Assembly (NCBI RefSeq): GCF_001187435.1
Contig: NZ_LFXA01000004.1
Coordinates: 129,001-193,000, forward strand
Length of the DNA stretch: 64,000 nucleotides
Reading direction: 5' to 3'
Source of the DNA: Streptomyces caatingaensis
GTDB lineage: Bacteria; Actinomycetota; Actinomycetes; Streptomycetales; Streptomycetaceae
Shown here: in pieces, positions 3,005 to 30,956 of the stretch
How positions within the stretch are numbered: the first letter of the stretch is position 1
How the letters are laid out: each line of letters starts with the position of its first letter
Notes under the pieces: model-generated
Seen by the model: the letters and a program-made list of their open reading frames with translations, nothing else
What the model was told of the DNA's origin: nothing
The model's database searches: none
Position numbers and translations under genes: made by a program

Positions 3005-3027
3005 ACCCTACTTGCGGGCACCGACAA
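3005..3027 (-). promoter_or_regulatory. RecA-NDp / PafBC-type damage promoter of uvrC
   Basis: On the minus strand the 23 nt read TTGTCGGTGCC, six bases, then TAGGGT. This matches the actinobacterial RecA-NDp consensus TTGTCRGTG-N8-TAnnnT. The -10 box ends 7 nt before the uvrC ATG, so the transcript should begin within 0-2 nt of the start codon. Confidence 0.85.
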
Positions 3028-3132
3028 CGGGGGCCGCGCGGGGAACGGCCCCGGCCCCGGCGCGTGGAGGGCGCCGGGGCCGGGGCGGGCGGGGCGGTGT
3101 GCGGGGTGTGGGGGGTCTCCGGTGCCGTCGGG

Positions 3133-3981
3133 TCAGCGGCGCCGGAGCCTGCGCACCGCCACGGTGGTGAGGCCGAGGCCGGCGGCCGCGGCGGCCGCGG
3201 CCGAGGCGGCCACGGTCGTGGTGGAGGGGCCGGAGGACGGGGCGGCGACGGGCTCGGCGGCCACCGCTCCGCCCTCGTCGTAGCCGCCGGCCGCGCCCTT
3301 CTTCGCGTAGGCGGAACCGGGCAGCTTGTCGCCGTACGCCGAGTGGACCCGCTCGCGGTAGGCCCCGAGCGTCGTCCCCGCGGTGCCGACGGCGCGCTCG
3401 GCGTCGGGGTTGAGCGGCAGGACGCGGTCGCCGCGCTGGACGTACCAGGCGTTGATCTGCGGTTCGCGGAAGACGGTGCCGCCGGCGAGCTTCCTCGCGC
3501 CCTCGGCGGCGTAGCGCGTCTCGTCGTCGCCGCTGGCGATGTTGACGACCTTCCAGCTCCCGCCGGTCTCGGCCGCCCACACGGACGCCTTCCGGCCGTC
3601 GGCCGAGACGGCCTTGCTGGCCACGTAGTCGAACGCGGCGACCGGGGCGTCCTTCCGGCCCGCCACGAACTCGGGCGAGAGGGAGTAGACGGGCACGGTC
3701 GCGCCCTCGATCCGGGGCGTGGCCGCGGGTCCGGCGGCGGCGGTGCGGCCGTCACGGGGTCCGCGGGCGTCGTCGCGGGCGAAGAAGCGCGCGAGCGTGT
3801 CGAGCGTCCCGGCGGACGTCGTGGCCGCCCTGGCCTGGGCGATGCCGGCGGCGGGCGGCGGGGCGGGCGCGGCCGGGGGCTGCGCGGCGTGGGCGAGGGG
3901 GGCGAGGCCGGCCAGGGCGGCGGTCAGGGCGCCGGCGGCCGCGACGCGGGCGGCGGTGCGGCGGGCGGTGTTCTCGGTCAT
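3133..3981 (-). CDS. Secreted protein with C-terminal membrane anchor, function unknown
   Basis: 282 aa. It has an N-terminal signal peptide (basic MTENTARR, Ala/Leu core, cleavage near AHA-AQ), a Pro/Ala-rich stretch, a central domain around residues 90-220 I do not recognise, and a C-terminal Ala-rich transmembrane helix ending in VRRLRRR. That tail would leave the protein tethered with its body outside the cell. There is no LPxTG-type sortase signal. It starts 4 nt after the stop of the cysteine protease gene upstream, with its ribosome site inside the end of that gene, so the two are almost certainly one operon. A role as partner, substrate or anchor of the protease is inference only. Confidence 0.8.
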   Translation of the reverse strand: MTENTARRTAARVAAAGALTAALAGLAPLAHAAQPPAAPAPPPAAGIAQARAATTSAGTLDTLARFFARDDARGPRDGRTAAAGPAATPRIEGATVPVYSLSPEFVAGRKDAPVAAFDYVASKAVSADGRKASVWAAETGGSWKVVNIASGDDETRYAAEGARKLAGGTVFREPQINAWYVQRGDRVLPLNPDAERAVGTAGTTLGAYRERVHSAYGDKLPGSAYAKKGAAGGYDEGGAVAAEPVAAPSSGPSTTTVAASAAAAAAAGLGLTTVAVRRLRRR

Positions 3982-3985
3982 CGGG

Positions 3986-4630
3986 TCACCCGCCGATCCG
4001 GTAGAGCGAATGCGTCCAGGCGAACCGGTTGTTGTCCACGTACCAGTTGTGGTCCGCCCAGTTGTAGCGGTTGCTGGTCTTCCACGGGTCGCCCCAGTAG
4101 ACCAGGTTGTTCGCGGTGTCGTAGCCGTAGATCACCTGCATGTGGCCGCCGCCGGACTTCCAGCCGATGCGGGTCTCGATGGGCCGGTCGGCGTTGATCT
4201 CGCCCTGCACCGTCGAGTAGCGCAGCCATCCGTCCACGTACGAGCCGGTGTTGATGCCGGCCCAGCGGAAGGCGTTCTGCACGTTGCCCAGCGTGGCCTG
4301 GTTGTTGGGGCACTCGGTGCCCTGCTGCCGGTTGAACGCGGCGTTGCAGAACTGGTTCTGGCTGTACTTCCGGCCGTACCAGGCGGCGATGGTGTTGCCG
4401 GAGCCGGCCCAGCACCAGTTGGTCTTCTCCTGGGCCTGCATGGTGATGTTCAGCTTCTTCGCGGCGCGCAGCGGCTTGGCGGCCGGTGCGGAGGCGGCGG
4501 AGGCCGTGGCGGTGGGCAGTGCCACCAGTGTCGCGGCCGCGAGGGCCGCGGCGGTCAGCCGGGCGGCGCCGCGCGGACGGCGCTCGCGGGATATGAGGGG
4601 TCTCTCGGATTGTGCCGAGGCACGGGCCAT
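3986..4630 (-). CDS. Secreted papain-like cysteine protease (AvrRpt2/C70-like)
   Basis: 214 aa. After a long signal peptide ending near residue 46 the protein shows TNWCWAGSGNTIAAWYG, the nucleophile motif of AvrRpt2-type papain-fold proteases (Cys73). His163 (GGGHMQVIYG) and Asp181 (YWGDPW) complete a plausible Cys-His-Asp triad. Two further cysteines (95 and 107) could form a disulfide. The spacing and short length fit family C70 / Peptidase_C39-like actinobacterial secreted enzymes. A vegetative-type promoter lies about 60 nt upstream. The downstream membrane-anchored protein appears co-transcribed. The substrate is unknown. Confidence 0.87.
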   Translation of the reverse strand: MARASAQSERPLISRERRPRGAARLTAAALAAATLVALPTATASAASAPAAKPLRAAKKLNITMQAQEKTNWCWAGSGNTIAAWYGRKYSQNQFCNAAFNRQQGTECPNNQATLGNVQNAFRWAGINTGSYVDGWLRYSTVQGEINADRPIETRIGWKSGGGHMQVIYGYDTANNLVYWGDPWKTSNRYNWADHNWYVDNNRFAWTHSLYRIGG

Positions 4631-4690
4631 GCCGATTCTCCCGTGTCAGGTGGGGGGTTGGACGGTGGGGGCGTCCGGACGCTGGTCAGG

Positions 4691-4719
4691 AGCATGGAAT
4701 GTTGTCGCGTGCTGGTCAA
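4691..4719 (-). promoter_or_regulatory. Predicted sigma-70-type promoter of the cysteine protease operon
   Basis: The minus strand reads TTGACC, a 17-nt spacer, then CATGCT. Transcription would begin near 4684, giving a leader of about 54 nt. It closely resembles the rpsA promoter in this window (TTGACC-17-TATGCT). Confidence 0.6.
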
Positions 4720-4836
4720 CCGGCTTGAATGCGGGGTGAGACGGCGAAGTGAACGGCTGCCGGCGTGTGTGAACGCCCCGTGCCCCCGCCAGGTGGAACG
4801 CGGCGCTCCACCCCGCGCCGGTTCCGTTCGCCTCGG

Positions 4837-4848
4837 GTGAATATTCAC
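4837..4848. promoter_or_regulatory. AT-rich perfect palindrome GTGAATATTCAC, possible operator
   Basis: A perfect 12-bp palindrome 17 nt before the ATG of the XRE-like regulator and touching its AGGAAG ribosome site. It stands out as AT-rich in a very GC-rich setting. Binding there would block the regulator's own expression; autoregulation is inference. Confidence 0.45.
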
Positions 4849-4865
4849 AGGAAGCGGCACACGGC

Positions 4866-5807
4866 ATGGCACGGACCGGCACACCGGTGGGCGAGAGCGA
4901 GCTGACACAGGCGCTGCGCACCGGCCCCTTCCATCTGGCGCTGCGCACGGCGCTGTCCGCGCGCGGCCTCGCGCTGCACCGGGTGCAGCACCGCCTCGCC
5001 CAGCGCGGCGTCAACGTCGGGCTGACGAGCCTCAGTTACTGGCAGCGGGGCGCGCGGTGCCCGCGAAGACCCGAGTCGCTGCGCGCCGTGCGGCTGCTGG
5101 AGGAGATCCTCGACCTGCCCGAACAGGCGCTGCTCCGGCTGCTCGACACGGCCGCCGCCCGGCCGGCCGGCGAGCGGCCCGCGGCGCGCACGTTACGGTC
5201 GCTGATGGACGAGTCCCGGGCCGTCGAGCGGCTGCTCGGCGAGCTGGAGGCGCCGGCGGACGGCGGACTGCACACCGTCTGCCACCTGGAACGGGTCTCC
5301 ATCGGCGCCCGCCGCGAACTGCGCGGGCGCGACTCGCACCACGTGGTGCGGGCGCACCGGGACGGGGTGGACCGCTACGTCGCCATCCACTACGGCGACA
5401 CCGGCTGCGACCCGGCGCGCATCGCCGTCCGCGCCACCGAGAACTGCCGTGTGGGGCGCGTGCGCTGGCACTCCGGCGCGGGCGTCCTGGTCAGCGAGCT
5501 GCTCTTCGACACCCGGCTGCGGGCCGGCGAGACGTACGTCTTCGGTTACGCCTTCGACGACGGGACGGGGGGTCCGAGCCACGAGTACGTGCGCGGGTTC
5601 AGCTTCGCGGGCGGGCAGTACGTCCTGGAGGTGCGCTTCGACGCGGCGGCCCTGCCGGTGCGCTGCCTGCGCTTCGCGCAGTCCTCGGCCGCGGCGCCGC
5701 GCAGCGGGCAGCAGGAGCTGACGCTCAGCGGGCGGCACCGCGGGGTGCACCTGGTGGAGCAGGGGGTGGGGCCGGGGATCGTGGGGATCGGCTGGGACTG
5801 GTACTGA
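4866..5807 (+). CDS. XRE-like DNA-binding protein with C-terminal all-beta domain
   Basis: 313 aa. Residues 17-85 form a divergent helix-turn-helix (FHLALRTALSARGLALHRVQ, then SYWQRGARCPRRPESLRAVR) of the type found in actinobacterial XRE-like regulators. Residues 110-313 form an unrecognised, probably beta-rich domain with conserved Trp and Gly. There is no catalytic motif. The ATG at 4866 follows AGGAAG and a palindrome that could be its operator. It diverges from the protease operon, so it may also control that operon. This architecture is common in Streptomyces and usually left as hypothetical. Confidence 0.8.
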   Translation: MARTGTPVGESELTQALRTGPFHLALRTALSARGLALHRVQHRLAQRGVNVGLTSLSYWQRGARCPRRPESLRAVRLLEEILDLPEQALLRLLDTAAARPAGERPAARTLRSLMDESRAVERLLGELEAPADGGLHTVCHLERVSIGARRELRGRDSHHVVRAHRDGVDRYVAIHYGDTGCDPARIAVRATENCRVGRVRWHSGAGVLVSELLFDTRLRAGETYVFGYAFDDGTGGPSHEYVRGFSFAGGQYVLEVRFDAAALPVRCLRFAQSSAAAPRSGQQELTLSGRHRGVHLVEQGVGPGIVGIGWDWY

Positions 5808-5820
5808 CCGCGCCGAGCCG

Positions 5821-6258
5821 CTACGCCTCCGGCCCCGCCACGAGGCGGCCGCCCTTCGTCCGCACCGGCACGGGCGGCAGCGGATCCCCGGCCGGGCCCT
5901 GGAGCACCTTGCCGGTCGCCACGTCGAACCGGCTGCCGTGGCACGAGCAGGCGGCCGCGCCCTCCTCGATGGCGGCCAGGACGCAGCCGGCGTGGGTGCA
6001 CTCCGCGCCGAAGGCCTTGAACTGCCCCTTCACCGGCTGGGCGACCAGCAGCCGCTCCTCGCGGTAGAGCTTGGCCCCGCCGACGGGGACCTCGCTCGCG
6101 GGCCCGAGCTCCACCGGCGCGGTGGGTGTCGAGGAGGCCCTCGCCCCCGTCCGCCCGTCGCACGCGACCGCACCGAGGCCGGCGACCCCGGCGAGCGCGG
6201 CTCCGCGCAGCACGGTACGGCGGGAGGCGCAGCAGGGGACGGGCTGCCGGCTGGTCAT
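5821..6258 (-). CDS. Tat-exported Rieske [2Fe-2S] protein
   Basis: 145 aa. The N-terminus has a twin-arginine signal (SRRTVLRG, Arg13-Arg14) ending in a lipobox-like GAVAC at Cys33, so the protein may be a Tat lipoprotein. The Rieske cluster ligands are all present: Cys87-x-His89 and Cys104-x2-His107, with Cys92 and Cys106 placed for the usual disulfide. The short length and lack of other domains indicate a stand-alone extracytoplasmic electron carrier rather than the cytochrome bc1 subunit. No partner oxidoreductase is adjacent. A TATCGT -10-like box at 6313-6318 would give a leader of about 50 nt. Confidence 0.9.
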   Translation of the reverse strand: MTSRQPVPCCASRRTVLRGAALAGVAGLGAVACDGRTGARASSTPTAPVELGPASEVPVGGAKLYREERLLVAQPVKGQFKAFGAECTHAGCVLAAIEEGAAACSCHGSRFDVATGKVLQGPAGDPLPPVPVRTKGGRLVAGPEA

Positions 6259-6346
6259 GGTGGTGCTCCTGGGGGGTGCGACGGCGTACCGCCTGAACGA
6301 TCTCGGTGCCCGACGATACTGCCCGCGCGGGGGGCAGGGGTTTCGT

Positions 6347-6385
6347 GCCCCGGACCCCGCCCCCTGCGGGGGAGGGGTCCGGGGC
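6347..6385 (-). terminator. Hairpin terminator downstream of uvrA
   Basis: Arms GCCCCGGACCCC (6347-6358) and GGGGTCCGGGGC (6374-6385) pair perfectly over 12 bp, with an inner CCCCC/GGGGG pairing. It lies 15 nt past the uvrA stop and before the Rieske gene. There is no U-tract, as is usual in Streptomyces. Confidence 0.7.
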
Positions 6386-6399
6386 CCGCCCCCAGGGCC

Positions 6400-9321
6400 T
6401 CAGCCCCGGCGAACCCGCGTCTTCGCCGGCGCCGTCTTCTTCGCGGGCGCCTTCCGCCCCCGCTTCGCCGGGGCCGGGGACACCGCGGGCAGCATCTCCC
6501 TCAGGAACCGGCCGGTGTGGCTGTCACCGTTCGCCGCGACATCCTCCGGCGTTCCCTCGGCGACCACCAGGCCGCCCCCGTTGCCGCCTTCCGGACCCAT
6601 GTCCACGACCCAGTCGGCCGTCTTGATCACATCGAGGTTGTGCTCGATGACGATCACGGTGTTGCCCTTGTCGACCAGGCCCGACAGCACGGAGATCAGC
6701 TTGTTGATGTCCTCGAAGTGCAGACCCGTGGTCGGCTCGTCGAGCACGTACACCGTCCGCCCGGTGGAGCGCTTCTGCAGCTCGCTCGCGAGCTTCACGC
6801 GCTGCGCCTCGCCGCCCGAGAGCGTGGGCGCGGACTGGCCGAGGCGCACGTACCCGAGGCCCACCTCGTTGAGCGTGCGCAGGTGGCGCGCGATCGTCGG
6901 CACGGCCTCGAAGAAGTCGAGGGCCTCCTCGATGGGCATGTCCAGCACCTCGGCGATGGACTTGCCCTTGTAGTGGACCTCCAGGGTCTCCCGGTTGTAG
7001 CGCGCCCCGTGGCAGACCTCGCAGGGCACGTACACGTCCGGCAGGAAGTTCATCTCGATCTTGATGGTGCCGTCGCCGGAGCAGTTCTCGCAGCGGCCGC
7101 CCTTGACGTTGAAGGAGAAGCGGCCGGGCAGGTAGCCCCGGACCTTCGCCTCCATGGTCTCGGCGAACAGCTTCCGGATGTGGTCGAAGACTCCGGTGTA
7201 CGTGGCGGGGTTGGACCGGGGCGTGCGGCCGATGGGCGACTGGTCGACGTGGACGACCTTGTCGACCAGGTCGTCGCCGTCGACCCGGGTGTGCCGGCCG
7301 GGCACGGCGCGGGCGCCGTTCAGCTCCCGGGCCAGGTGTGTGTAGAGGATGTCGTTGACCAGCGTGGACTTGCCGGAGCCGGAGACGCCCGTCACCGCCG
7401 TGAGCACCCCGAGGGGGAAGGACACGTCGATGTCGCGGAGGTTGTTCTCCCGGGCGCCGCGGACGGTCAGGCGGCGCTCGGGGTCGACGGGCCGGCGCAC
7501 CTGCGGGGTGGCGATGGCCCGGCGGCCGGAGAGGTACTGGCCGGTCATGGACTCCTCGGTGGAGAGGAGCTCGGCCAGCGGGCCGCTGTGGACGACCTTG
7601 CCGCCGTGCTCGCCGGCGCCGGGGCCGATGTCCACGACCCAGTCGGCGACCTTGATCGTGTCCTCGTCGTGCTCGACGACGATCAGGGTGTTGCCCATGT
7701 CGCGCAGGCGGACCAGCGTCTCGATGAGGCGGTGGTTGTCGCGCTGGTGCAGGCCGATGGACGGCTCGTCCAGCACGTACAGCACGCCCACCAGGCCGGA
7801 GCCGATCTGTGTGGCGAGCCGGATGCGCTGCGCCTCGCCGCCGGAGAGGGTGCCCGCGGCGCGGTTGAGCGAGAGGTAGTCCAGGCCGACGTCGACGAGG
7901 AACCTCAGCCGCTCGTTGACCTCCTTGAGCACCCGCTCGGCGATCTTCTTCTCGCGGCCGGTGAGCTTCATGCCGCGCAGGAAGTCGGCGCACTCGCTGA
8001 TGGACATCGCGGAGACCTCCGCGATGGAGCGGTCCTGCACGGTGACGGCGAGGACGATCGGCTTGAGCCGGGTGCCCTCGCAGGTGGGGCAGGGCACCTC
8101 GCGCATGAAGCCCTCGAAGCGCTCGCGGCTGGAGTCGCTCTCGGCCTCGGAGTGCCGCCGCTTGACGAAGGGCACGGCGCCCTCGAAGGCGGTCGTGTAG
8201 GCGCGCTCGCGGCCGTAGCGGTTGCGGTAGCGGACCTCGATCTGGGTCTTGTGCCCGTTCAGCAGGGCCTTCTTGGCGCGCTGGGGCAGGCCGGCCCAGG
8301 GGATGTCGGTGCGGAAGCCGAGCTCGTCGGCGAGCGCGGAGACCAGGCGGTGGAAGTAGTCCTTCGTGTGGCCGTGGGACCAGGGGCTGATGGCGCCCTC
8401 GTCGAGGCTCTTCTCCGGGTCGGGGACGACGAGTTCGGGGTCGACCTCCATGCGGGTGCCGATGCCGGTGCAGTCCGGGCAGGCGCCGAAGGGCGAGTTG
8501 AAGGAGAAGGAGCGGGGCTCCAGCTCCTCGAAGGAGAGGTCGTCGTAGGGGCAGTAGAGGTGCTCGGAGTACATCCGCTCGCGCTCGGGGTCGTCCTCGG
8601 GGAGATCCACGAAGTCGAGGACGACCATGCCGCCGGAGAGGCCGAGGGCGGTCTCGACGGAGTCCGTCAGCCGGCGCTTGGCGCTGTTCTTCACGGTCAG
8701 GCGGTCGACGACCACCTCGATCGTGTGCTTCTCCTGCTTCTTGAGCTTGGGCGGCTCGGAGAGCTGGACCGTCTTCCCGTCGACCCGGGCCCTGCTGTAG
8801 CCCTTGGTCTGGAGGTCGGCGAAGAGGTCGACGAACTCGCCCTTGCGCTCGCGCACCAGCGGGGAGAGCACCTGGAAGCGGCTGCCCTCGGGCAGCTCCA
8901 GCACCTTGTCGACGATGGCCTGCGGCGACTGGCGGGAGATCGGCCGGCGGCACTCGGGGCAGTGCGGCTTGCCGATCCGGGCGAACAGCAGCCGGAGGTA
9001 GTCGTAGACCTCCGTGATCGTGCCGACCGTCGAGCGCGGGTTGCGCGAGGTCGACTTCTGGTCGATGGAGACGGCCGGGGACAGGCCCTCGATGAAGTCC
9101 ACATCGGGCTTGTCCATCTGGCCCAGGAACTGCCGTGCGTAGGAGGAGAGCGACTCGACGTAGCGACGCTGCCCCTCGGCGAAGATCGTGTCGAAGGCGA
9201 GCGACGACTTGCCCGACCCGGACAGGCCCGTGAAGACGATGAGGGAGTCACGGGGGAGGTCGAGCGAGACGTTCTTGAGGTTGTGCTCGCGCGCGCCACG
9301 GACGATGAGACGGTCAGCCAC
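6400..9321 (-). CDS. uvrA: UvrABC system protein A (damage-sensing ATPase)
   Basis: 973 aa, the normal size. UvrA dimers scan DNA for distortions and load UvrB. Two ABC-ATPase modules are visible ([14 protein letters not shown] near the N-terminus and [13 protein letters not shown] past residue 600, each with an LSGGEAQR signature), plus zinc-finger cysteines ([23 protein letters not shown]). The C-terminus is a Lys/Arg/Ala-rich tail typical of actinobacterial homologues. The frame is open 63 codons further upstream, but the GTG at 9321 is chosen because homologues begin [14 protein letters not shown] and an AAAGGTG ribosome site precedes it. Unlike uvrC and uvrB it has a leader and no good RecA-NDp promoter. 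Confidence 0.97.
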
Positions 9322-9498
9322 GCCGGTCGGCACCTTTCGTGTGAAGAGGAAGGGGGTGCGCCGGCCCCGCCACCGCACGAGGCCGCCCGTCTCGGGGGCC
9401 GTCGCGGGAGCAGAGGTCAGTGCGGAGCGATGCTCCCGACCCCGACAGGGTACGAGAGCGCTGCGGGCATCTCCCAAGGATGCCGCATCCCGAGCGTA

Positions 9499-9514
9499 TA
9501 GCACGCACATTCGA
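9499..9514 (-). promoter_or_regulatory. Weak SOS-box-like site overlapping a TATACGCT -10 in the uvrA upstream region
   Basis: The minus strand reads TCGAATGTGCGTGCTA, agreeing at 9 of 12 defined positions with the actinobacterial LexA box TCGAAC-N4-GTTCGA. It overlaps a TATACGCT box (9493-9500) that could serve uvrA with a leader of about 165 nt. A perfect 14-bp palindrome GGCGGGATCCCGCC at 9520-9533 lies just upstream. LexA control is a low-confidence inference. Confidence 0.3.
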
Positions 9515-9536
9515 TTTACGGCGGGATCCCGCCTGC

Positions 9537-9565
9537 TTCACCCGAAGGAGTGGCGGCGCTATCGT
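9537..9565 (+). promoter_or_regulatory. Predicted promoter giving a leaderless transcript
   Basis: TTCACC, a 17-nt spacer, then TATCGT (9560-9565), followed by exactly 6 nt and the ATG at 9572. This places +1 on the A of the start codon. No ribosome site is present. Confidence 0.6.
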
Positions 9566-9571
9566 CGCCGC

Positions 9572-10258: not shown

Positions 10259-10268
10259 ACCAGGACCA

Positions 10269-10291
10269 CTGTCGTACCGAGGAACTAGGCT
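10269..10291 (+). promoter_or_regulatory. Candidate (weaker) RecA-NDp-type promoter of the MBL hydrolase
   Basis: CTGTCGTACCG, six bases, then TAGGCT reproduces the TGTC[A/G] core, the -10 and the exact spacing of the uvrC, uvrB and polA promoters. It lacks the GTG of the upstream half. The -10 ends 6 nt before the ATG at 10298, so the message would be leaderless. Confidence 0.5.
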
Positions 10292-10297
10292 GATTCC

Positions 10298-10954: not shown

Positions 10955-11062
10955 CGGCCTCCGCCGTGCGCCCCGGCGGGGCGCACGGCGGGCGGAAGCG
11001 AACGCTCCGCCACGCCCCCGCGCGCCCCGTTTCCCTTCCGGGAGCGGGAAGTTGGACGGTAC

Positions 11063-16308: not shown

Positions 16309-18438
16309 TCAGGCCAGGCCCGCCTCCCTCATCTGCCGCAGCTCCTTCTTGAGTTCGCCCACCTCGTCCCGCAGCCGGGCGGCGATCTCGAACTGGAGCT
16401 CCGCGGCCGCGGCCCGCATCCGGTCCGTCATCTCCTCGATCATCTCGGCGAGTTCGGCGGCGGGCCGGTCCGTCGGCACGGTCTGCCGGGCCCTGGCGGC
16501 CTTCTTGCCGCCCTTGCCCCCGGCGGGTGCCGTGGGCACCGGCGCCTTCGCCTTGCCCTTGTCCGCCCGCCGGTAGCCCGTGCCCAGCAGCTCCTCGGTG
16601 TCGATCTCCTCGCGGGCGAGGGTGGCGACGATGTCACCGATCTTCTTGCGCAGGGGCTGCGGGTCGATGCCCCGCTCCTTGTTGTACGCGATCTGCTTCT
16701 CGCGGCGCCGGTTGGTCTCCTCGATCGCCTTCTCCATCGCGGGCGTGATCTTGTCCGCGTACATATGGACCTGGCCCGAGACGTTGCGCGCCGCACGGCC
16801 GATGGTCTGGATCAGGGAGGTGCCGGACCGGAGGAAGCCCTCCTTGTCCGCGTCGAGGATCGCCACCAGGGACACCTCGGGCAGGTCGAGGCCCTCGCGC
16901 AGCAGGTTGATGCCGACCAGGACGTCGTACTCGCCCGCGCGCAGCTCGCGCAGCAGCTCCACGCGGCGCAGCGTGTCCACGTCGCTGTGCAGGTAGCGGA
17001 CCTGGATGCCCAGCTCCAGGAAGTAGTCCGTGAGATCCTCGGCCATCTTCTTGGTGAGGGTGGTGACGAGGACGCGCTCGTCCTTCTCGGTGCGCTCGCG
17101 GATCTCGTGCACCAGATCGTCGATCTGCCCCTCGGTGGGCTTGACGACGACCTCCGGATCCACCAGGCCGGTGGGCCGGATGATCTGCTCGACGAAGCCG
17201 TCGGAGCGGGAGAGCTCGTACGGCCCCGGCGTCGCCGACAGGTAGACCGTCTGCCCGATGCGCTCGGTGAACTCCTCCCACTTCAACGGGCGGTTGTCCA
17301 GCGCGGACGGCAGCCGGAAGCCGTGCTCGACCAGGGTGCGCTTGCGGGAGGCGTCGCCCTCGTACATCGCGCCGATCTGCGGGACCGTGACGTGCGACTC
17401 GTCGATGACGAGGAGGAAGTCCTCCGGGAAGAAGTCGAGCAGGGTGTTGGGCGGGGAGCCGGGCTCGCGGTCGTCCATGTGCAGCGAGTAGTTCTCGATG
17501 CCGGAGCAGGAGCCGATCTGGCGCATCATCTCGATGTCGTAGGTGGTGCGCATGCGCAGCCGCTGGGCCTCCAGCAGCTTGCCCTGCTTCTCCAGCTTCG
17601 CCAGCTGCTGCTCCAGCTCGGCCTCGATCCCCGCGACGGCCTTCTCCATCCGCTCGGGACCGGCGACGTAGTGGCTGGCCGGGAAGACGTACAGCTCCTC
17701 GTCGTCGGAGATGACCTCGCCGGTGAGCGGGTGCAGCGTGGACAGCGCCTCGATCTCGTCGCCGAACATCTCGATGCGCACGGCCAGTTCCTCGTAGACC
17801 GGGAAGATCTCGATGGTGTCGCCGCGGACGCGGAAGGTGCCGCGGGTGAACGACAGGTCGTTGCGCGTGTACTGGATCTCGACGAAGCGGCGCAGCAGCT
17901 CGTCCCGGTCGATCTCCTCGCCGACCTTGAGGGGCACCATGCGGTCCACGTACTCCTGCGGGGTGCCCAGGCCGTAGATGCAGGACACGGAGGCCACCAC
18001 GACGACGTCGCGGCGGGTGAGCAGGGAGTTGGTGGCGGAGTGGCGCAGCCGCTCCACCTCCTCGTTGATCGAGGAGTCCTTCTCGATGTAGGTGTCCGAC
18101 TGCGGGACGTACGCCTCGGGCTGGTAGTAGTCGTAGTACGAGACGAAGTACTCGACGGCGTTGTTCGGCAGGAGCTCGCGGAACTCGTTGGCGAGCTGGG
18201 CCGCCAGGGTCTTGTTGGGCGCCATGACGAGCGTCGGCCGCTGGAGCTTCTCGATCATCCACGCCGTGGTCGCCGACTTGCCGGTGCCGGTCGCGCCGAG
18301 CAGCACCACGTCCTTCTCCCCCGCGCGGATGCGCTTCTCCAGCTCCGCGATGGCCGTCGGCTGGTCACCGCTGGGCTGGTAGGGGCTGACGACCTCGAAG
18401 GGCGCCACCTTGCGTTCGATCTTGGAAACGGGCCGCAT
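16309..18438 (-). CDS. uvrB: UvrABC system protein B
   Basis: 709 aa. UvrB verifies the lesion with its beta-hairpin and hands the site to UvrC. Visible are the Walker A ([13 protein letters not shown]), the damage-probing hairpin ([17 protein letters not shown]), the DExH-type box (VIDESHVT), motif VI ([10 protein letters not shown]), and a C-terminal UVR domain ([19 protein letters not shown]) that contacts UvrC. A Lys/Ala-rich insert precedes the UVR domain. The ATG at 18438 is chosen because a damage-type -10 box ends exactly 6 nt upstream, putting +1 on the start codon; the alternative 17 codons upstream lies inside the promoter. Confidence 0.98.
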
Positions 18439-18444: not shown

Positions 18445-18467
18445 ACCGTACGACCTGCCACTGACAA
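18445..18467 (-). promoter_or_regulatory. RecA-NDp / PafBC-type damage promoter of uvrB
   Basis: The minus strand reads TTGTCAGTGGC, AGGTCG, TACGGT, followed by GGTCCC and the uvrB ATG. The upstream 11 nt equal the motif I recall for Streptomyces recA promoters. A leaderless transcript is predicted. Confidence 0.87.
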
Positions 18468-21073: not shown

Positions 21074-21085
21074 CCGTCGTGACGC

Positions 21086-22156: not shown

Positions 22157-22189
22157 CGCCGTCAGCGGTCACCCGCGGTGGTCGGAGCC

Positions 22190-23683: not shown

Positions 23684-23882
23684 GTGGGAAAGGGCTCCGG
23701 TACGGACATTGAGTCGTAGGTACTGCTACGCCGAGAGCCCGTATATCGCACCGCCGAAGCCGGACAGCCTTGGAGGCGCTCTCCGGATCGCTCCGGTAGC
23801 GCCTCGACAACCGAGGGGACATGCAACAAGTGCGAAAGCGGCCTGCTCGGTCCGAGGCGCGCAGGCCCGCAGCGCAACTTGT

Positions 23883-23911
23883 AGCATACGGGGACGGCCG
23901 GACACGGTCAA
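23883..23911 (-). promoter_or_regulatory. Predicted vegetative (HrdB-type) promoter of rpsA
   Basis: The minus strand reads TTGACC, a 17-nt spacer, then TATGCT, close to consensus. Transcription would begin near 23876. Confidence 0.75.
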
Positions 23912-24054
23912 TGCGCGAAGGCGCACAGCAGGGACAAAACCCACCGAATCCGGCGCAACTCACCTTGCAGGACGCGGGAAACGCCCCTCGAAGTCCTCGG
24001 ACGGCCGGATACTCTACCCACTTTTCCAGCCGGCCAGGGATCGCGACCACCCAG

Positions 24055-24870
24055 ATGACGCCAGAATCCACCGAAGAGCACGAGCCCGAGGCGGTCCGCA
24101 GGACCACCGGCGCCACCGAGAGCAGCCGGGCCAGCCGCGGCTGGTGGGACCGCAACGCCGACGAGTACCAGAGCGAACACGGCGCGTTCCTCGGCGACGA
24201 CCGCTTCGTCTGGGGCCCTGAGGGCCTGGACGAGGCGGAGGCGGGGCTGCTCGGCCGCCCCCTGGCCGGGCTGGACGTGCTGGAGATCGGAGCCGGCGCG
24301 GCCCAGTGCTCGCGCTGGCTGGCCGCCCAGGGGGCCCGGCCGGTCGCCCTGGACCTCTCGCACCGGCAGCTCCAGCACGCGCTGCGGATCGGCGGGGACG
24401 TCCCCCTGGTCGAGGCCGACGCCGGGGCCCTCCCCTTCGCGGCCGGCTCCTTCGACCTGGCCTGCTCGGCGTACGGGGCGCTGCCCTTCGTCGCCGACCC
24501 GGTGCGGGTGATGCGCGAGGTGCACCGGGTGCTGCGGCCCGGGGGGCGCTGGGTCTTCTCCGTCACCCACCCGATCCGCTGGGCCTTCCCCGACGAGCCC
24601 GGGCCCGAGGGCCTCTCCGTCGCCGCCTCCTACTTCGACCGCACGCCCTACGTCGAGCAGGACGAGGCGGGGCGGGCCGTGTACGTCGAGCACCACCGCA
24701 CGCTGGGGGATCGCGTGCGCGACGTCGTCGCCGGGGGTTTCCGGCTCCTCGACCTCGTCGAGCCGGAGTGGCCGGACTGGAACACGCAGGAGTGGGGCGG
24801 CTGGTCGCCCCTGCGCGGCCACTTGATCCCGGGCACGGCGATCTTCGTCTGCGAGCGCGACCAGGGCTGA
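24055..24870 (+). CDS. Class I SAM-dependent methyltransferase
   Basis: 271 aa. After a 40-residue N-terminal region (WWDRNADEYQSEHG), motif I is VLEIGAGAAQCSRWLA. It is followed by the acidic loop ALDLSHRQL, motif II (FDLACSAYGALPFV) and the post-II segment VLRPGGRWVFSVTHP. The fold is that of the Methyltransf_11 group. The substrate cannot be predicted; in Streptomyces this gene often lies next to rpsA. The ATG at 24055 is the first start after the divergent rpsA promoter, with a TACTCT box about 40 nt upstream as a possible -10. It ends just before a large inverted repeat. Confidence 0.92.
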   Translation: MTPESTEEHEPEAVRRTTGATESSRASRGWWDRNADEYQSEHGAFLGDDRFVWGPEGLDEAEAGLLGRPLAGLDVLEIGAGAAQCSRWLAAQGARPVALDLSHRQLQHALRIGGDVPLVEADAGALPFAAGSFDLACSAYGALPFVADPVRVMREVHRVLRPGGRWVFSVTHPIRWAFPDEPGPEGLSVAASYFDRTPYVEQDEAGRAVYVEHHRTLGDRVRDVVAGGFRLLDLVEPEWPDWNTQEWGGWSPLRGHLIPGTAIFVCERDQG

Positions 24871-24894
24871 GGGGGCAGGGCTGAGGGGGGATGT

Positions 24895-25059
24895 GCCCCC
24901 GACCCGCCCTTTCACCGTTTCTGGCGCGCTGCCGCGCGGGGCAACGCGGCTTCGCCACGTTAGTCCCCAAACGCCGGACGGGCTGATTCAGCCCGTCCGG
25001 CGTTTGAGGACACCCGCGGCGGAGCCGCACCAGAAACGGTGAAAGGGCGGGTCGGGGGC
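24895..25059. repeat. Nested inverted repeat: 30-bp outer arms around a 19-bp hairpin
   Basis: Outer arms 24895-24924 and 25030-25059 are perfect reverse complements over 30 bp. Inside, 24968-24986 (CAAACGCCGGACGGGCTGA) and 24988-25006 pair perfectly over 19 bp. The inner hairpin, followed by GAGGAC, is a sequence I recall as recurring in Streptomyces intergenic regions. It separates the methyltransferase and hrpB and can terminate transcripts in both directions. It could instead be a relict mobile palindromic element. Confidence 0.8.
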
Positions 25060-25087
25060 GCCTCTCCCCCTCAGCGACACTGTCCCG

Positions 25088-27658
25088 GTGACCCGCACCA
25101 CCGACGTCCTCACCCACCTCCCCGTCCACACCGCCCTCCCCCACCTCACCCGCGCCCTCGACAGCCACGGCGCAGCCGTCCTCTGCGCCCCGCCCGGCAC
25201 GGGCAAGACCACCCTGGTCCCCCTGGCCCTGGCAGGGCTGGCAGGGCCAGCGGGACCAGAGGGAGGAGCGGAGATCGACGAGGCCGCGCCCCGGCGCGTC
25301 CTCGTCGCCGAACCCCGCCGCATCGCCGCCCGCGCCGCAGCCCGCCGCATGGCCTGGCTGCTGGGCGAGCAACCGGGCGTGCGCGTCGGCTTCACGGTGC
25401 GCGGGGAGCGGAAGGCCGGCCCCCGGACGGTGGTCGAGGTGGTCACCACCGGTGTCCTGCTCCAGCGCCTCCAGCACGACCAGGAGCTGGCCGGAGTCGA
25501 CGTCGTCGTCCTCGACGAGTGCCACGAGCGGCACCTGGACGCGGACACCGCGGCCGCCTTCCTGCTCGACGTCCGGGCGGCCCTGCGCCCGGACCTGCGC
25601 CTGGTGGCCGCGTCGGCGACGACGGACGCCGAGGGCTGGGCCCGGCTGCTGGGCGACGCCCCGGTGGTGACGGCGGAGGGCACGGCGCACCCCGTGGAGG
25701 TCGTGTGGGCGCCCCCGCCGCGCGCCGTGCGCCCCCCGCACGGCCTGCGGGTGGACCCGGCGCTGCTGGACCACGTGGCGGCCGTGGTGCGGCGGGCGCT
25801 GCGCGAGCGCGAGGGCGACGTGCTGTGCTTCCTGCCGGGGGTCGGCGAGATCGGCCGGGTGGCCGGGCTGCTGGGCGGGGAGGAACGGCTGGGGGCGGAG
25901 GTGCTCCAGGTGCACGGCCGGGCCCCGGCCGCCGTCCAGGAGGCGGTGCTGGCCGGCAGCCCGGAGGGCACCCGCCGGGTGGTGCTGGCGACCTCGGTGG
26001 CGGAGTCGAGCCTGACCGTGCCGGGGGTGCGTGTCGTCGTGGACGCCGGTCTGGCGCGCGAGCCGCGCACGGACCACGCCCGCGGGCTGAGCGCCCTGAC
26101 GACCGTCCGGGCGTCCCGGGCGGCCGGCCGGCAGCGGGCCGGCCGGGCGGGCCGTGAGGCCCCGGGGACGGTCTACCGCTGCTGGGCGGAGGGCGACGAC
26201 GCCCGGCTGCCGGCGTTCCCGGCGGCGGAGATCACGGTCGCGGACCTGACGGCGTTCGCCCTGCAGGCGGCCTGCTGGGGCGACCCCGACGCGAGCGGCC
26301 TGGCGCTGCTCGATCCCCCGCCCTCCGGCGCGATGGCCGCGGCCCGCGCCGCGCTGACCGCCACGGGCGCCGTGGACGGTGCGGGCCGCCCGACCGGCCG
26401 GGGCCGGCGGATGGCCCGGCTCGGCGTGCACCCCCGCCTCGCACGGGCCCTGCTGGACGGCGCCCCGCGGCTGGGCGCGCGGCGCACGGCCGAGGTGGTG
26501 GCGCTGCTGAGCGAGGAGCCGCCCCGGGAGTACGGCGACGACCTGGCCGCCGCGTGGCGGGCCGCGCGCCGGGGCGCGGACGCGTACGGGGCGCGCTGGC
26601 GTGCGGAGGCGCGCCGGCTGGAGGGCGCCCTGCGCGGGGTCGCGGAGGACGGTCCGTGCGGCGGCGAACCGCTGGGCGACGACGCCGCCGCGGGCCTGGT
26701 CGCGGCGCTGGCCTTCCCCGAACGGGTGGCGTGCGCGCGTGGCGGGGCGTCGTACCTGATGGTGTCCGGGACGGGCGCCGAGCTGGGCGACGGTTCGCGC
26801 CTGCGCGGCATGCCGTGGCTCGCCGTGGCCGTCGCCGACCGGCCGGTCGCCGCGGCGTCGGCCCGGGTCCGGCTGGGCGCGGTGATCGACGAGGGGACGG
26901 CCCGGGAGACGGCCGGGGCGCTGCTCGCCGAGGACGAGGAGGTGCGCTGGTCCCCGGAGCGCCGGGACGTGGTGGCCCGCCGGGTGACGCGGCTGGGCGC
27001 CGTCGAGCTGGCCTCGGCCCGGCTCGCCGCCCCGGACCGGGCCCGGCTGCGGGCGGCGCTGCGGGAGGGGCTGGTGGCGGAGGGCCCGGGGCTGCTGCGC
27101 TGGAGCGCGGAGCCCACCGGACTGCGGCGGCGCCTGGCGTTCCTCCACCGCGAGCTGGGCGATCCCTGGCCGGACGTCTCGGACGCCGCGCTGCTGGAGC
27201 GGGCGGACGAGTGGCTGGGCCCGGAGCTCGACGCGGCGCGCGGGCGCGCGGATCTGGAGCGCGCGGACGTACGCGCCTGTCTGGAGCGCCTGTTGCCGTG
27301 GGCGACGGGCGACGCCGCCCGGCTGGGCGAGCTGGCGCCGGAGCGGATCGAGGTGCCCAGCGGCTCGCGGATCCGGGTGGAGTACGGCGACGGGCAGCCC
27401 GTGCTGGCCGTCAAGCTCCAGGAGCTCTTCGGTCTCCAGGACACGCCGCGGCTCGCGGGCGGGCGGGTGCCCGTCCTGGTGCACCTGCTCTCACCGGCGG
27501 GACGCCCGGCGGCCGTCACGGCCGACCTGGCGTCCTTCTGGCGGGAGGGCTACCGGGCCGTACGGGCCGAGCTGCGCGGCCGCTACCCGCGCCACCCGTG
27601 GCCGGAGGACCCCGTTGCGGCCGAGCCCACCCGGCGCACCAACACCCGCCGCCGGTGA
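25088..27658 (+). CDS. hrpB: ATP-dependent RNA helicase HrpB
   Basis: 856 aa, the family size. The DEAH-type helicase core has Walker A APPGTGKTT (residues 34-42), motif Ia EPRRIAARAAARRM, motif II DECHERHLD, motif III ASATTD, motif V ATSVAESSLTVPGV and motif VI GRQRAGRAGREAPGTVYRCW. The C-terminal HrpB domain ends in RYPRHPWPEDP. HrpB proteins are RNA-dependent ATPases of uncertain cellular role. The GTG at 25088 begins MTRTTDVLTHLPVH, which suits HrpB N-termini; no ribosome site is seen, so it may be leaderless. It converges on the small gene at 27683. Confidence 0.95.
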   Translation: MTRTTDVLTHLPVHTALPHLTRALDSHGAAVLCAPPGTGKTTLVPLALAGLAGPAGPEGGAEIDEAAPRRVLVAEPRRIAARAAARRMAWLLGEQPGVRVGFTVRGERKAGPRTVVEVVTTGVLLQRLQHDQELAGVDVVVLDECHERHLDADTAAAFLLDVRAALRPDLRLVAASATTDAEGWARLLGDAPVVTAEGTAHPVEVVWAPPPRAVRPPHGLRVDPALLDHVAAVVRRALREREGDVLCFLPGVGEIGRVAGLLGGEERLGAEVLQVHGRAPAAVQEAVLAGSPEGTRRVVLATSVAESSLTVPGVRVVVDAGLAREPRTDHARGLSALTTVRASRAAGRQRAGRAGREAPGTVYRCWAEGDDARLPAFPAAEITVADLTAFALQAACWGDPDASGLALLDPPPSGAMAAARAALTATGAVDGAGRPTGRGRRMARLGVHPRLARALLDGAPRLGARRTAEVVALLSEEPPREYGDDLAAAWRAARRGADAYGARWRAEARRLEGALRGVAEDGPCGGEPLGDDAAAGLVAALAFPERVACARGGASYLMVSGTGAELGDGSRLRGMPWLAVAVADRPVAAASARVRLGAVIDEGTARETAGALLAEDEEVRWSPERRDVVARRVTRLGAVELASARLAAPDRARLRAALREGLVAEGPGLLRWSAEPTGLRRRLAFLHRELGDPWPDVSDAALLERADEWLGPELDAARGRADLERADVRACLERLLPWATGDAARLGELAPERIEVPSGSRIRVEYGDGQPVLAVKLQELFGLQDTPRLAGGRVPVLVHLLSPAGRPAAVTADLASFWREGYRAVRAELRGRYPRHPWPEDPVAAEPTRRTNTRRR

Positions 27659-27682
27659 GGGAGTCGCTCCCGCCGGGGAGGT

Positions 27683-27886
27683 TCAGGGGAGGTAGCGCTC
27701 GAGTGCCGCCGCCCCCTTCTCCTCGATGTGCCGGCGGGCCGCCTCGACCCGCTCCGGGGTGATGTCGTGGCCGGAGGCCAGGACGAGGTCCTCCGGGTCG
27801 AAGGGCCGCTCGGCGCCGGTGTACAGCCGGCTCGGCCCGGACGCGGTGGACCGCTCGGTGGATCCGTCCTCGGGACTCTCCTTCAC
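27683..27886 (-). CDS. Small conserved-looking protein, function unknown
   Basis: 67 aa, beginning MKESPEDGST from a GTG at 27886 with AGGAGG 6 nt upstream. The second half (LVLASGHDITPERVEAARRHIEEKGAAALERYLP) is helical and acidic/basic-patterned like a small DNA- or protein-binding module; I do not recognise a named family. The frame is open further upstream but without the composition of a real protein. It lies between hrpB (convergent) and polA (same strand, upstream). Confidence 0.72.
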   Translation of the reverse strand: MKESPEDGSTERSTASGPSRLYTGAERPFDPEDLVLASGHDITPERVEAARRHIEEKGAAALERYLP

Positions 27887-28007
27887 GGCGAGCCTCCTCT
27901 GCTCCGCGGTCCCCCTCCCCGGGGGACCGTCCGTTTGAGGGGTTCCCTCCATCGTGTGACATCGGAGAGGCGTTCGCACACCGATCTCGCGACAATCAGC
28001 AGCTGGA

Positions 28008-28052
28008 ACGGCCGTGCGGCCGCTCCCCGGGGGGGAGGGGCCGCACGGCCGT
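28008..28052 (-). terminator. Hairpin terminator of polA
   Basis: ACGGCCGTGCGGCC (28008-28021) and GGCCGCACGGCCGT (28039-28052) pair perfectly over 14 bp, with a further CTCCCC/GGGGAG pairing in the loop. It lies 30 nt past the polA stop. Confidence 0.82.
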
Positions 28053-28082
28053 CCGGAGCAGTGCGGGCGCCGGTGCGGGGCG

Positions 28083-30926
28083 TCAGTGCGCGGCGGACTC
28101 CCAGTCGCCGCCGACGCCGACCGAGACGTCCAGCGGGGCACGCAGCTCGACGGCCCCGGACATCTCCCGGCGCACCAGCTCCTCGACCTGCTCCCGCTCG
28201 CCGGGGGCGACCTCCAGCACGACTTCGTCGTGCACCTGGAGCAGCATCCGGGTGGCGAGCCCTTCCTTCTCCAGCGCCCCGGCGACCCGCAGCATCGCGA
28301 TCTTGACGATGTCGGCGGCGGTGCCCTGGATCGGGGCGTTGAGCGCCATGCGCTCGGCCATCTCCCGCCGCTGGCGGTTGTCGCTGTTGAGATCCGGCAG
28401 GTAGCGGCGGCGGCCCAGCATCGTCTCGGTGTAGCCGGTGGCGCGGGCCTCCTCGACGACGCGGCGCAGGTAGTCCCGCACTCCGCCGAAGCGCTCGAAG
28501 TAGGTGTCCATCAGGCCGCCGGCCTCGCCCGGGGAGATCCCCAGCTGCTGGGAGAGCCCGAACGCCGACAGACCGTAGGCCAGGCCGTACGACATCGCCT
28601 TGATCTTGCGGCGCATCTCGGCGTCCACCTCGGTCTTGGCCACGCCGAAGACCTGGGAGGCGACGGTGGTGTGCAGATCCTCGCCCGAGGTGAACGCCTC
28701 GATCAGGCCCTCGTCCTCGGAGAGGTGGGCCATGACGCGCAGCTCGATCTGGCTGTAGTCGGCCGTCATCAGCGACTCGAAGCCCTCGCCGACCACGAAG
28801 CAGCGGCGGATGCGGCTGCCGTCGGCGGTGCGCACCGGGATGTTCTGCAGGTTCGGGTCGGTGGAGGAGAGCCGGCCGGTGGCGGCCACCATCTGGTTGA
28901 AGGTGGTGTGGATCCGGCCGTCCGCCGCGATGTTGTTGATCAGGCCGTCGACGGTGGTGCGGAGCTTGGCGCGGTCGCGATGGCGCAGCAGGACGACCGG
29001 GAGCTCGTTCTCCGTCTGGCCGGCGAGCCAGGCGAGGGCGTCGGCGTCCGTGGTGTAACCGGTCTTGATCTTCTTGGTCCGGGGCAGGCCCAGCTCCTCG
29101 AAGAGGATCTCCTGGAGCTGCTTGGGCGAGGAGAGGTTGAACTCCCGGCCGGCGGCCCGGTGGGCGTCGGCGACGGCCTGCTCGATCTCGCCCAGGTACT
29201 CCTCGGAGAGCCGCTCCAGACGGGCGCGGTCCACCGCGATGCCCTCGCGCTCCATCGCGACCAGCAGGTCGCCGACGGGGAACTCCAGGTCGCGCATGAG
29301 CTCCAGCGCGTGCGTCCCGGCGAGCTTGCGCTCGTAGAACTCCCCGAGGTCGAGGACGGCGCGGGCCTCGACCATGAGCTTCTCGGCGGCCTCCTTGTCG
29401 GCCGTGCCGTCGAAGTCGAACGCCTGCTGGCCCGCCTCCGCCTTGTCGGGATCGACGCGCGGCAGGGTGCGGCCGAGCTTGTCCTCGACGAGCACCTCCA
29501 GCTCGGTGAGCTGCCGCTTGCCCTTGTTGAAACGGACCTTGCCGGCCCGCTTCTGGCGGTGGCGGTTGAGCGGATCCGTCTCGAAGGGGCGGGCCCCGGG
29601 CTCGTCCAGGTAGGCGGCCACGGCGGTGTCCATCGTGACGCCCGCGACGGCCCAGCCGCGCTCGGCGAAGACCCGCAGCACGCGCTTGCCCATGTGCAGC
29701 ACCTTCGGCCGGGACGCGTCGGCCAGCCAGGCGGCGAACGCCTTGTCGTCGGCCTCGGACAGCTCCTGCGGCTCGAACCAGCAGGCCCGCCCGTCCGGCA
29801 GGGCCAGCGCCACCTCGTGGACGTCGCCGCTGCCCAGCTTCCAGTCGTAACCGGCCGCGACCGCGGCGGGCACCTCCGCCGGGATCGCCTCCAGCCAGCC
29901 CGCCAGCTCGTCCGCGCCCAGCATGCGCCCGTCGAGCTCGACCTCCAGCTCCTCGGCGGCCTCCGCCACGGCCGCCGCCGGATCCGTGCCCCACAGCCGC
30001 TCGCGCAGACTGCGGTTGCGGATCTCCAGCCGGTCCAGCAGGGCACCCAGCGCGGCCAGGTCGTACGCCTCGCGCACCAGGCCCTCCGGGCCGGTCGACA
30101 GCTCCACGTCGCGCACCATCTCCGTCAGGCGGCGGTTGAGCTTCACCGCCTCCAGGTGCTCGCGCAGATTCTGCCCCGCCTTGCCCTTGACCTCGTCCGC
30201 GCGCGCCACCAGCTCGGCGAACGAACCGAACTGGTTGATCCACTTCGTGGCCGTCTTCTCGCCGACACCCGGGATGCCCGGCAGGTTGTCCGACGGGTCG
30301 CCGCGCAGCGCCGCGAAATCCGGGTACTGCGCGGGCGACAGGCCGTACTTCTCCATGACCTTCGCGGGCGTGAAACGCGTCAGCTCCGAGACGCCCTTGG
30401 TCGGGTACAGCACCGTGACGGCGTCGCTGACCAGCTGGAAGGAGTCACGGTCGCCCGTGACGATCGACACCTCGAAGCCCTGGGCCTCCGCCTGCGTCGC
30501 CAGCGTGGCGATCACGTCGTCCGCCTCGAAGCCGTCGACCGCGAAGCGCGGCACCCGCATGTGGTCGAGCATCTCCCCGATCAGCTCGACCTGGCCCTTG
30601 AACTCGTCGGGGGTCTTCGACCGGTTCGCCTTGTACTCCGCGAACTCCTCCGAGCGCCACGTGGTGCGCGAGACGTCGAAGGCCACCGCGAAGTGCGTGG
30701 GCGCCTCGTCACGCAAGGTGTTCGCGAGCATCGACGCGAAACCGTAGACCGCGTTGGTCGGCTGGCCCCCGGACGTCGTGAAGTTCTCCGCGGGCAGCGC
30801 GAAGAACGCCCGGTACGCCATGGAGTGCCCGTCCATGAGGAGCAGGCGGGGCCGGCCTCCCCCCGCTGCCCCGGTGCCGGTCGGCTCACTGCTGTCGGAC
30901 GGTGTCATCGATGCCTTTGCTGCCAC
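28083..30926 (-). CDS. polA: DNA polymerase I
   Basis: 947 aa from the GTG at 30926. It fills repair gaps and removes primers. The 5'-3' exonuclease domain is N-terminal (LLLMDGHSMAYRAFFALPAE, FDVSRTTWRSEEF), with a helix-hairpin-helix at GVGEKTATKW. A proofreading-like domain without clear catalytic carboxylates follows. The polymerase domain has motif A DYSQIELRVMAHLSEDE, motif B RRKIKAMSYGLAYGLS and motif C LQVHDEVVLE. The ATG at 30908 is the usual choice, but the damage-type -10 box ends 7 nt before the GTG at 30926, exactly as at uvrC, so the six-codon longer form is preferred. Transcribed divergently from the YdeP-type gene. Confidence 0.96.
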   Translation of the reverse strand: MAAKASMTPSDSSEPTGTGAAGGGRPRLLLMDGHSMAYRAFFALPAENFTTSGGQPTNAVYGFASMLANTLRDEAPTHFAVAFDVSRTTWRSEEFAEYKANRSKTPDEFKGQVELIGEMLDHMRVPRFAVDGFEADDVIATLATQAEAQGFEVSIVTGDRDSFQLVSDAVTVLYPTKGVSELTRFTPAKVMEKYGLSPAQYPDFAALRGDPSDNLPGIPGVGEKTATKWINQFGSFAELVARADEVKGKAGQNLREHLEAVKLNRRLTEMVRDVELSTGPEGLVREAYDLAALGALLDRLEIRNRSLRERLWGTDPAAAVAEAAEELEVELDGRMLGADELAGWLEAIPAEVPAAVAAGYDWKLGSGDVHEVALALPDGRACWFEPQELSEADDKAFAAWLADASRPKVLHMGKRVLRVFAERGWAVAGVTMDTAVAAYLDEPGARPFETDPLNRHRQKRAGKVRFNKGKRQLTELEVLVEDKLGRTLPRVDPDKAEAGQQAFDFDGTADKEAAEKLMVEARAVLDLGEFYERKLAGTHALELMRDLEFPVGDLLVAMEREGIAVDRARLERLSEEYLGEIEQAVADAHRAAGREFNLSSPKQLQEILFEELGLPRTKKIKTGYTTDADALAWLAGQTENELPVVLLRHRDRAKLRTTVDGLINNIAADGRIHTTFNQMVAATGRLSSTDPNLQNIPVRTADGSRIRRCFVVGEGFESLMTADYSQIELRVMAHLSEDEGLIEAFTSGEDLHTTVASQVFGVAKTEVDAEMRRKIKAMSYGLAYGLSAFGLSQQLGISPGEAGGLMDTYFERFGGVRDYLRRVVEEARATGYTETMLGRRRYLPDLNSDNRQRREMAERMALNAPIQGTAADIVKIAMLRVAGALEKEGLATRMLLQVHDEVVLEVAPGEREQVEELVRREMSGAVELRAPLDVSVGVGGDWESAAH

Positions 30927-30933
30927 GCCCCCG

Positions 30934-30956
30934 ATCCTGCCACGACCCACTGACAA
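30934..30956 (-). promoter_or_regulatory. RecA-NDp / PafBC-type damage promoter of polA
   Basis: The minus strand reads TTGTCAGTGGG, TCGTGG, CAGGAT. The spacing matches the uvrC and uvrB elements; the -10 has C in place of T at its first base. The transcript would begin at or next to the GTG at 30926. Confidence 0.78.

Follow-up and report, generated by a model that had tools for sequence, protein, structure and literature searches.

Probable PafBC-type promoters with predicted leaderless starts at uvrC, uvrB and polA of Streptomyces caatingaensis

A 64,000-nucleotide (nt) stretch of the Streptomyces caatingaensis genome (contig NZ_LFXA01000004.1, positions 129,001 to 193,000; hereafter the window) harbors the repair genes uvrC, uvrB and polA. 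Each is preceded on the minus strand by one copy of a 23-nt element. The three elements are probably RecA-NDp promoters activated by PafBC, through which DNA damage would be expected to induce the three genes. Transcription is predicted to initiate at the start codon itself, which would yield leaderless mRNAs. This mechanism, in which a PafBC-type promoter gives rise to a leaderless mRNA, is likely, judged from sequence and comparison. The RecA-NDp consensus is TTGTCRGTG at -26.

Elements and genes in the window

3005..3027, minus strand: PafBC-type element of uvrC; -26 core TTGTCGGTG (3019-3027), N8, -10 TAGGGT (3005-3010)
1024..2997, minus strand: uvrC; ATG start (2997) 7 nt past the -10; NCBIfam UvrC, 1120 bits
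18445..18467, minus strand: PafBC-type element of uvrB; -26 core TTGTCAGTG (18459-18467), N8, -10 TACGGT (18445-18450)
16309..18438, minus strand: uvrB; ATG start (18438) 6 nt past the -10; NCBIfam UvrB, 1081 bits
30934..30956, minus strand: PafBC-type element of polA; -26 core TTGTCAGTG (30948-30956), N8, -10 CAGGAT (30934-30939)
28083..30926, minus strand: polA; GTG start (30926) 7 nt past the -10; NCBIfam DNA polymerase I, 1025 bits

UvrC, UvrB and DNA polymerase I were identified by NCBIfam equivalog models above cut-off, and an adjoining gene encodes UvrA. The -26 core matches TTGTCRGTG in 9/9 positions at uvrC, uvrB and polA alike; the -10 of polA has C instead of T in first place. When positions are counted from the start codon as +1 (offset 6), the word of nine bases spans -29 to -21, a location between the customary -35 and -10 regions. 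Judged from the -10 spacing, the start codons of the three genes are also the predicted transcript starts. In polA, an ATG is located 18 nt further in from the GTG start. The pattern TTGTCRGTG-N8-YASGRT has three matches in the window, compared to a mean of 0.00 and a maximum of 0 in 100 dinucleotide shuffles. A chance origin is ruled out by this result together with the genome-wide count of 45 matches against 1 in the control (see below). A sequence-only reading of the window had placed three 23-mers of common internal spacing on the minus strand, with the -10 ending 6-7 nt before a start codon, and had equated the motif with the RecA-NDp element of PafBC. The coordinates and the spacing are borne out by the three matches against 0.00 expected, the measured distances are 7 (uvrC), 6 (uvrB) and 7 nt (polA), and the motif agrees in sequence, with its -10 at fixed spacing, at all three genes.

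RecA-NDp was reported for recA of Streptomyces rimosus and then for Mycobacterium tuberculosis, according to titles in a reference list. It has been tied to PafBC (PMC8223512, PMC6789036), and the -26 motif is the contact of PafB (PMC11804915). If the mycobacterial mechanism applies, single-stranded DNA would bind PafBC, PafB would touch the -26 element and PafC would touch sigma domain 4. Transcription by the housekeeping polymerase would begin some 7 nt past the -10, with the A or G of the start codon as its first nucleotide. Ribosomes would initiate on the bare 5′ AUG or GUG. Speculatively, repair enzymes could still be made when leader-dependent initiation drops under stress.

Genome-wide set of sites

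When relaxed to TTGTCRGTG-N9-ANNNT, the pattern matches at 45 places in the 7.06-Mb genome, compared to a single match for the reversed-pattern control. The R position is A in 39 of the 45 sites. Start codons were assigned by script, and the genes of 36 sites were subjected to family searches (left out: L001, L005, L009, L025, L026, L034, L038, L040 and L041). Thirteen of them belong to replication or repair. They encode UvrC, UvrB, DNA polymerase I, RecA, RuvC, DnaX, a delta-prime-like clamp-loader protein, a DinB-type polymerase, a uracil-DNA glycosylase, an AlkZ-like glycosylase, an Lhr-type helicase, a topoisomerase/gyrase A subunit and a DnaQ-type exonuclease. The remaining 23 genes have an unrelated or unknown function or lack a family match, e.g. 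an ABC permease, a DtxR-type regulator, ribosomal protein S6, DUF4287, DUF1963 and an FtsK/SpoIIIE ATPase; some of these sites may be chance matches. A damage group of three genes had been proposed initially. The set is indeed rich in repair genes, but it extends to about 45 sites, and a single promoter for just uvrC, uvrB and polA is rejected on this count.

Among the further sites, a gene for a NADAR-domain protein (Pfam; L032:2835-3485) has a leaderless PafBC-type start. Together with the published case of the SCO6735 macrodomain, it hints at ADP-ribose removal within this damage regulon. Two divergent PafBC-type sites lie 37 bp apart on contig 9 (L023 and L024, 246515-246597). One is leaderless, and the other has its start codon 38 nt past the -10, before an AAA/MoxR-type ATPase gene.

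Spacing between the -10 and the start codon

At the 45 sites, an ATG or GTG follows the -10 at offset 6 in nine cases and at offset 7 in twelve. Offsets 0 to 5 hold 2, 5, 4, 0, 2 and 3 such codons, and offsets 8-14 hold 0 or 1 each. A second cluster lies at offsets 31-40. Eighteen sites look leaderless, with an open frame of 30 codons or more that begins at offset 6 or 7 (recA not counted). Start codons 31-51 nt past the -10 were found for ruvC, ung, the delta-prime-like clamp-loader gene and the topoisomerase subunit gene. In S. coelicolor, 21.0% of the primary transcripts are leaderless (PMC4895711). Compared to 21%, a base rate from a different species and a different method, 18 of 45 corresponds to a one-sided binomial P of 0.003 for this genome alone.

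The strict pattern, with TA required in the -10, was applied to 101 genomes of the genus including this one and yielded 2540 sites, which are not independent trials because the genomes are related. RTG stands 6-7 nt after the -10 in 1180 sites (46.5%), a number that includes sites at recA, where the GTG is possibly not the true start, and 10-11 nt after it in 135 sites (5.3%). The leaderless-type share exceeds 21% in each of the 101 genomes. Leaderless translation of the three genes had been claimed from the window. The distance between -10 and start codon is conserved, as would be expected of leaderless transcription; the leaderless mRNA itself is a prediction.

In recA, a GTG lies exactly 7 nt past the PafBC -10 and 36 nt ahead of the usual ATG (L028, L169-L179). 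It is in frame with recA in 12/12 genomes, i.e. this one and 11 chosen for having the early GTG. The 36-nt stretch is nearly invariant, with 33 of 36 positions identical across the 12 genomes. Third codon positions are invariant in 11 of 12 codons of this stretch, compared to 17 of 40 in the initial part of recA. It represents either the beginning of a leaderless RecA longer by 12 residues or a conserved leader element.

Conservation of the layout

UvrB, UvrC and PolA were searched in 30 genomes of the class, comprising ten sister genomes of the same genus and 20 genomes of nine other family labels (f2-f10). The layout was scored as present with a start codon 6-8 nt past a -10 (at least 2/3 positions) and at least 5/9 positions of the -26 word, using the best-scoring in-frame start. 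It is retained at uvrB and polA in 30/30 genomes each and at uvrC in 25/30. TGTC occurs in exact register in 29/30 (uvrB), 28/30 (polA) and 22/30 genomes (uvrC).

The uvrB word is perfect in all ten sister genomes and matches at least 8/9 positions in 16 of the other 20 genomes, six of which have a perfect word; the start offset is 6-8 nt in 30/30 genomes. For polA, at least 8/9 positions are matched in eight sister genomes and six others, and a GTG stands 6-8 nt past the -10 throughout (30/30). The uvrC word reaches at least 8/9 in one sister genome (9/9 in none) and in two others. All ten sister genomes retain the -10, the TGTC core and the 7-nt spacing at uvrC, with the GTG half mostly decayed. 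The uvrC copy in the window is thus unusually strong, and uvrC is a strong PafBC candidate mainly in this species.

The next in-frame start in the sister genomes lies 64 or 94 nt past the -10 for uvrC and 61-79 nt past it for polA (assessed by eye). In polA it is positioned beside or within the conserved exonuclease domain. In uvrB, a GTG is present 36-37 nt past the -10.

Distribution in the phylum

The loose pattern has at least one match in 352 of the 396 phylum genomes scanned. Counts above those of the control, however, characterize the genus and some parts of the class. Each of the other 19 genus members in the phylum sample has 21-99 matches (reversed control 0-4). Outside the class, 0-15 matches per genome were obtained, mostly near the control.

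The class member G270 (family f3) has 40 matches and none in the control. An open frame of at least 50 codons begins at offset 5-8 in 10 of 30 examined loci. The leaderless-type genes include uvrB, an Lhr-type helicase gene (by first residues), a PD-(D/E)XK nuclease gene and a DnaQ-type exonuclease gene. The starts of recA and uvrA lie 53 and 32 nt past the -10, respectively. The R position is G in 38 of the 40 matches, some of which may be due to chance.

A variant word, TGTCGCAG, occurs with a -10 at uvrB of three genomes outside the class (L192 in G025, L189 in G231 and L185 in G013). Two of the three loci are in leaderless register.

Alternative interpretations

Several observations weigh against PafBC-activated leaderless promoters, the borrowed base rate of 21% being one of them. 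In nine of the ten sister genomes, uvrC keeps TGTC but scores below 8/9. The 40 other class members have 1-40 matches, some equal to the control (G008, 5 and 5; G237, 2 and 2). Five genomes of family f8 lack a detected PafC (cut-off E 1e-20), yet their uvrB genes retain TGTC, the -10 and a start codon 6 nt past it, which weakens the link to PafBC. PafC matches of 9e-26 to 2e-22 were obtained in three further f8 genomes; either PafC has diverged in this family or the layout can outlive it. Finally, an initial search published in 2022 suggested a lack of conservation of the M. smegmatis motif in S. venezuelae (PMC9380542). One possible reason, going by the base at R, is the predominance of A in the present genome (39/45) as opposed to G in G270.

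The biological role of the layout allows for two readings. In the first, the PafBC response would include a built-in translational arm, core excision-repair genes being held leaderless class-wide while leader-dependent translation falters. This is possible but doubtful. In M. tuberculosis, starvation and nitric oxide affect leaderless translation less than Shine-Dalgarno translation (PMC8485053), which makes a stress advantage of leaderlessness plausible; for DNA damage in particular, such an advantage is hypothetical. The second reading accepts the PafBC promoter and the leaderless mRNA and denies a purpose: the promoter is pinned at the start codon, and leaderless starts are common in the phylum. 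Its chance comes close to even. About 21% of primary transcripts in S. coelicolor are leaderless anyway, the excess in the present set is about twofold and not absolute, and ruvC, ung and the topoisomerase subunit gene carry leaders. The share above 21% in all 101 genomes and the uvrB and polA layouts in 30/30 genomes argue against a purpose-free arrangement, though these genomes are not independent.

Housekeeping sigma promoters of leaderless genes, with TGTC near -27 as a general promoter trait and not a PafBC site, are an unlikely explanation. They would account for the uvrC promoters of the sister genomes, which keep TGTC and the -10 and mostly lose the GTG half, and for TGTC at uvrB in the five genomes without detected PafC. 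As a control, other genes with TANNNT 6-7 nt before an ATG or GTG were taken from the analyzed DNA (class 'other', 70 rows). Removed by reading were eight recA rows, five genes with the full element (L015, L030, L044, L045 and L073), three misfiled uvrB rows (L082, L191 and L202) and a uvrA row (L108). This left 53 genes, several of them orthologous to one another, and only two of the 53 show TGTC in that register. TGTC as a trait of all leaderless promoters is rejected on this basis, and in the present genome the complete TTGTCRGTG word is concentrated at repair genes.

A gene for an MBL-fold hydrolase in the window (ATG 10298) shows the leaderless layout with CTGTCGTAC in the -26 register (10269-10297). 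Nine related control rows of this family lack TGTC in the -26 register.

PafBC and other WYL regulators

PafB and PafC are encoded in this genome. The pafA gene is located on contig 17, followed by two adjacent WYL-WCX genes about 1.8 and 2.8 kb downstream. The second WYL-WCX protein carries the PafC helix-turn-helix domain (Pfam). PafC matches were obtained in all 19 other genus members of the phylum sample, with 85-91% identity. pafA itself looks leaderless (L047), having an ATG 6 nt past a TAGTGT -10 and no PafBC element in that register.

The uvrB promoter was compared between 15 genomes lacking a PafC match and 15 having one; a uvrB locus was recovered from 14 of the genomes with a match, and one genome yielded two loci. 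TGTC was in register in 0/10 PafC-negative genomes of other classes and in 3/14 PafC-positive genomes outside the class (G231, G025 and G081). Phylum-wide PafC matches mix orthologues with other WYL proteins, and the correlation of motif and PafC was therefore not used.

It is quite improbable that a different WYL-domain activator reads the element in place of PafBC. The WYL regulator SiwR, which occurs in rapidly growing mycobacteria, likewise works via the -26 region (PMC10693628), and Actinobacteria possess on average 5.2 WYL proteins per organism (PMC6789036). However, a GGA triplet is conserved at -26 in the target of SiwR (PMC10693628), while TTGTCRGTG is the RecA-NDp form tied to PafBC.

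uvrA and SOS boxes

6400..9321, minus strand: uvrA; GTG start; NCBIfam UvrA, 1586 bits
9501..9514, minus strand: SOS-like box TCGAATGTGCGTGC upstream of uvrA; 8/10 positions of the consensus used

No PafBC element was found within 320 nt upstream of uvrA in this genome, the best candidate matching 8 of 11 scored positions. In eight of the ten sister genomes, a nine-base word without mismatch, together with a -10, begins 77-103 nt upstream of the uvrA start codon; G104 and G162 lack such a copy. A PafBC-type copy has thus likely been lost here, as far as the comparison of upstream regions indicates. The remark that uvrA is without a good copy is correct for this genome (8/11), but it is no rule for the genus, given the perfect copies in eight sisters. 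An SOS-like box, TCGAA-N4-CGTGC, is located further upstream of uvrA in this and all ten sister genomes (11 in total), and eight sisters combine it with the PafBC-type site. In S. venezuelae, LexA was bound at uvrA, and the change in uvrA expression was just below the cut-off (PMC9380542).

A UvrA-like gene (by reading) of the f8 genome G206, L108, has a leaderless start with TGTC in the -26 register. It differs from the uvrA promoters in the genus and in G270, which have leaders.

Induction of uvrC, uvrB and polA by LexA, the element being incidental, is most improbable: LexA controls recA, ruvC and possibly uvrA in S. venezuelae (PMC9380542), but between 350 nt upstream and 50 nt inside the three genes the best SOS boxes match only 5-6 of 8 positions, and the three genes are unmentioned in the main text of that regulon paper. 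LexA control of these genes was rejected for want of a good SOS box. A stricter SOS pattern has two one-mismatch matches in the window (19169 and 38263), with 2.79 expected by chance.

Comparison with known systems

The preferred interpretation, PafBC-activated promoters with leaderless transcripts, can be compared to several described systems. Mycobacterial RecA-NDp/PafBC promoters share the -26 element, an A/T-containing -10, the activator PafBC and the repair genes. They differ in that nearly half of the strict sites described here abut the start codon. The RecA-NDp promoters of Streptomyces recA and SCO6735 contain the same element, and SCO6735 is UV-inducible (PMC5087735). These reports address single genes; the accessible text of PMC5087735 contains neither a genome-wide set nor uvrB, uvrC, polA or leaderless starts.

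Leaderless mRNAs of Streptomyces and Mycobacterium likewise have the -10 6-7 nt before ATG or GTG. In contrast to the present set, the published functional groupings for S. coelicolor comprise membrane proteins and regulators, or no linked function at all, but not DNA repair. The nearest parallel is Deinococcus, which possesses an SOS-independent damage regulon, IrrE/DdrO, that includes uvrA, uvrB and recA, and for which leaderless mRNAs have been called important (title in reference list) (PMC5552922). However, the Deinococcus system uses a repressor and a different motif, and the two leaderless transcripts described in the accessible text, tkt and Deide_09130, were not radiation-induced (PMC5552922). 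The LexA/SOS regulon of S. venezuelae is similar in its damage control of repair genes and overlaps at recA, ruvC and uvrA. It depends on a repressor and an SOS box, which was not found at uvrC, uvrB and polA here.

A link of the PafBC/RecA-NDp regulon to leaderless starts was not found in the open-licence literature, including the accessible text of PMC10936776, PMC2897130, PMC13388538 and PMC5552922. The element itself is already known. New would be its reach in the genus and the leaderless bias, about twice the S. coelicolor share. The comparison of genomes also suggests, as a further new aspect, a class-wide pinning of the promoter to the start codon at uvrB and polA, which appears looser at uvrC.

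Implications

The findings bear on the question, open in 2022, of a PafBC-type damage regulon in Streptomyces: the element recurs tens of times in each genome of the genus, and many repair genes carry it in S. caatingaensis. In practice, it can be used for fixing start codons and for finding damage genes. The connection of DNA damage and leaderless translation becomes directly testable.

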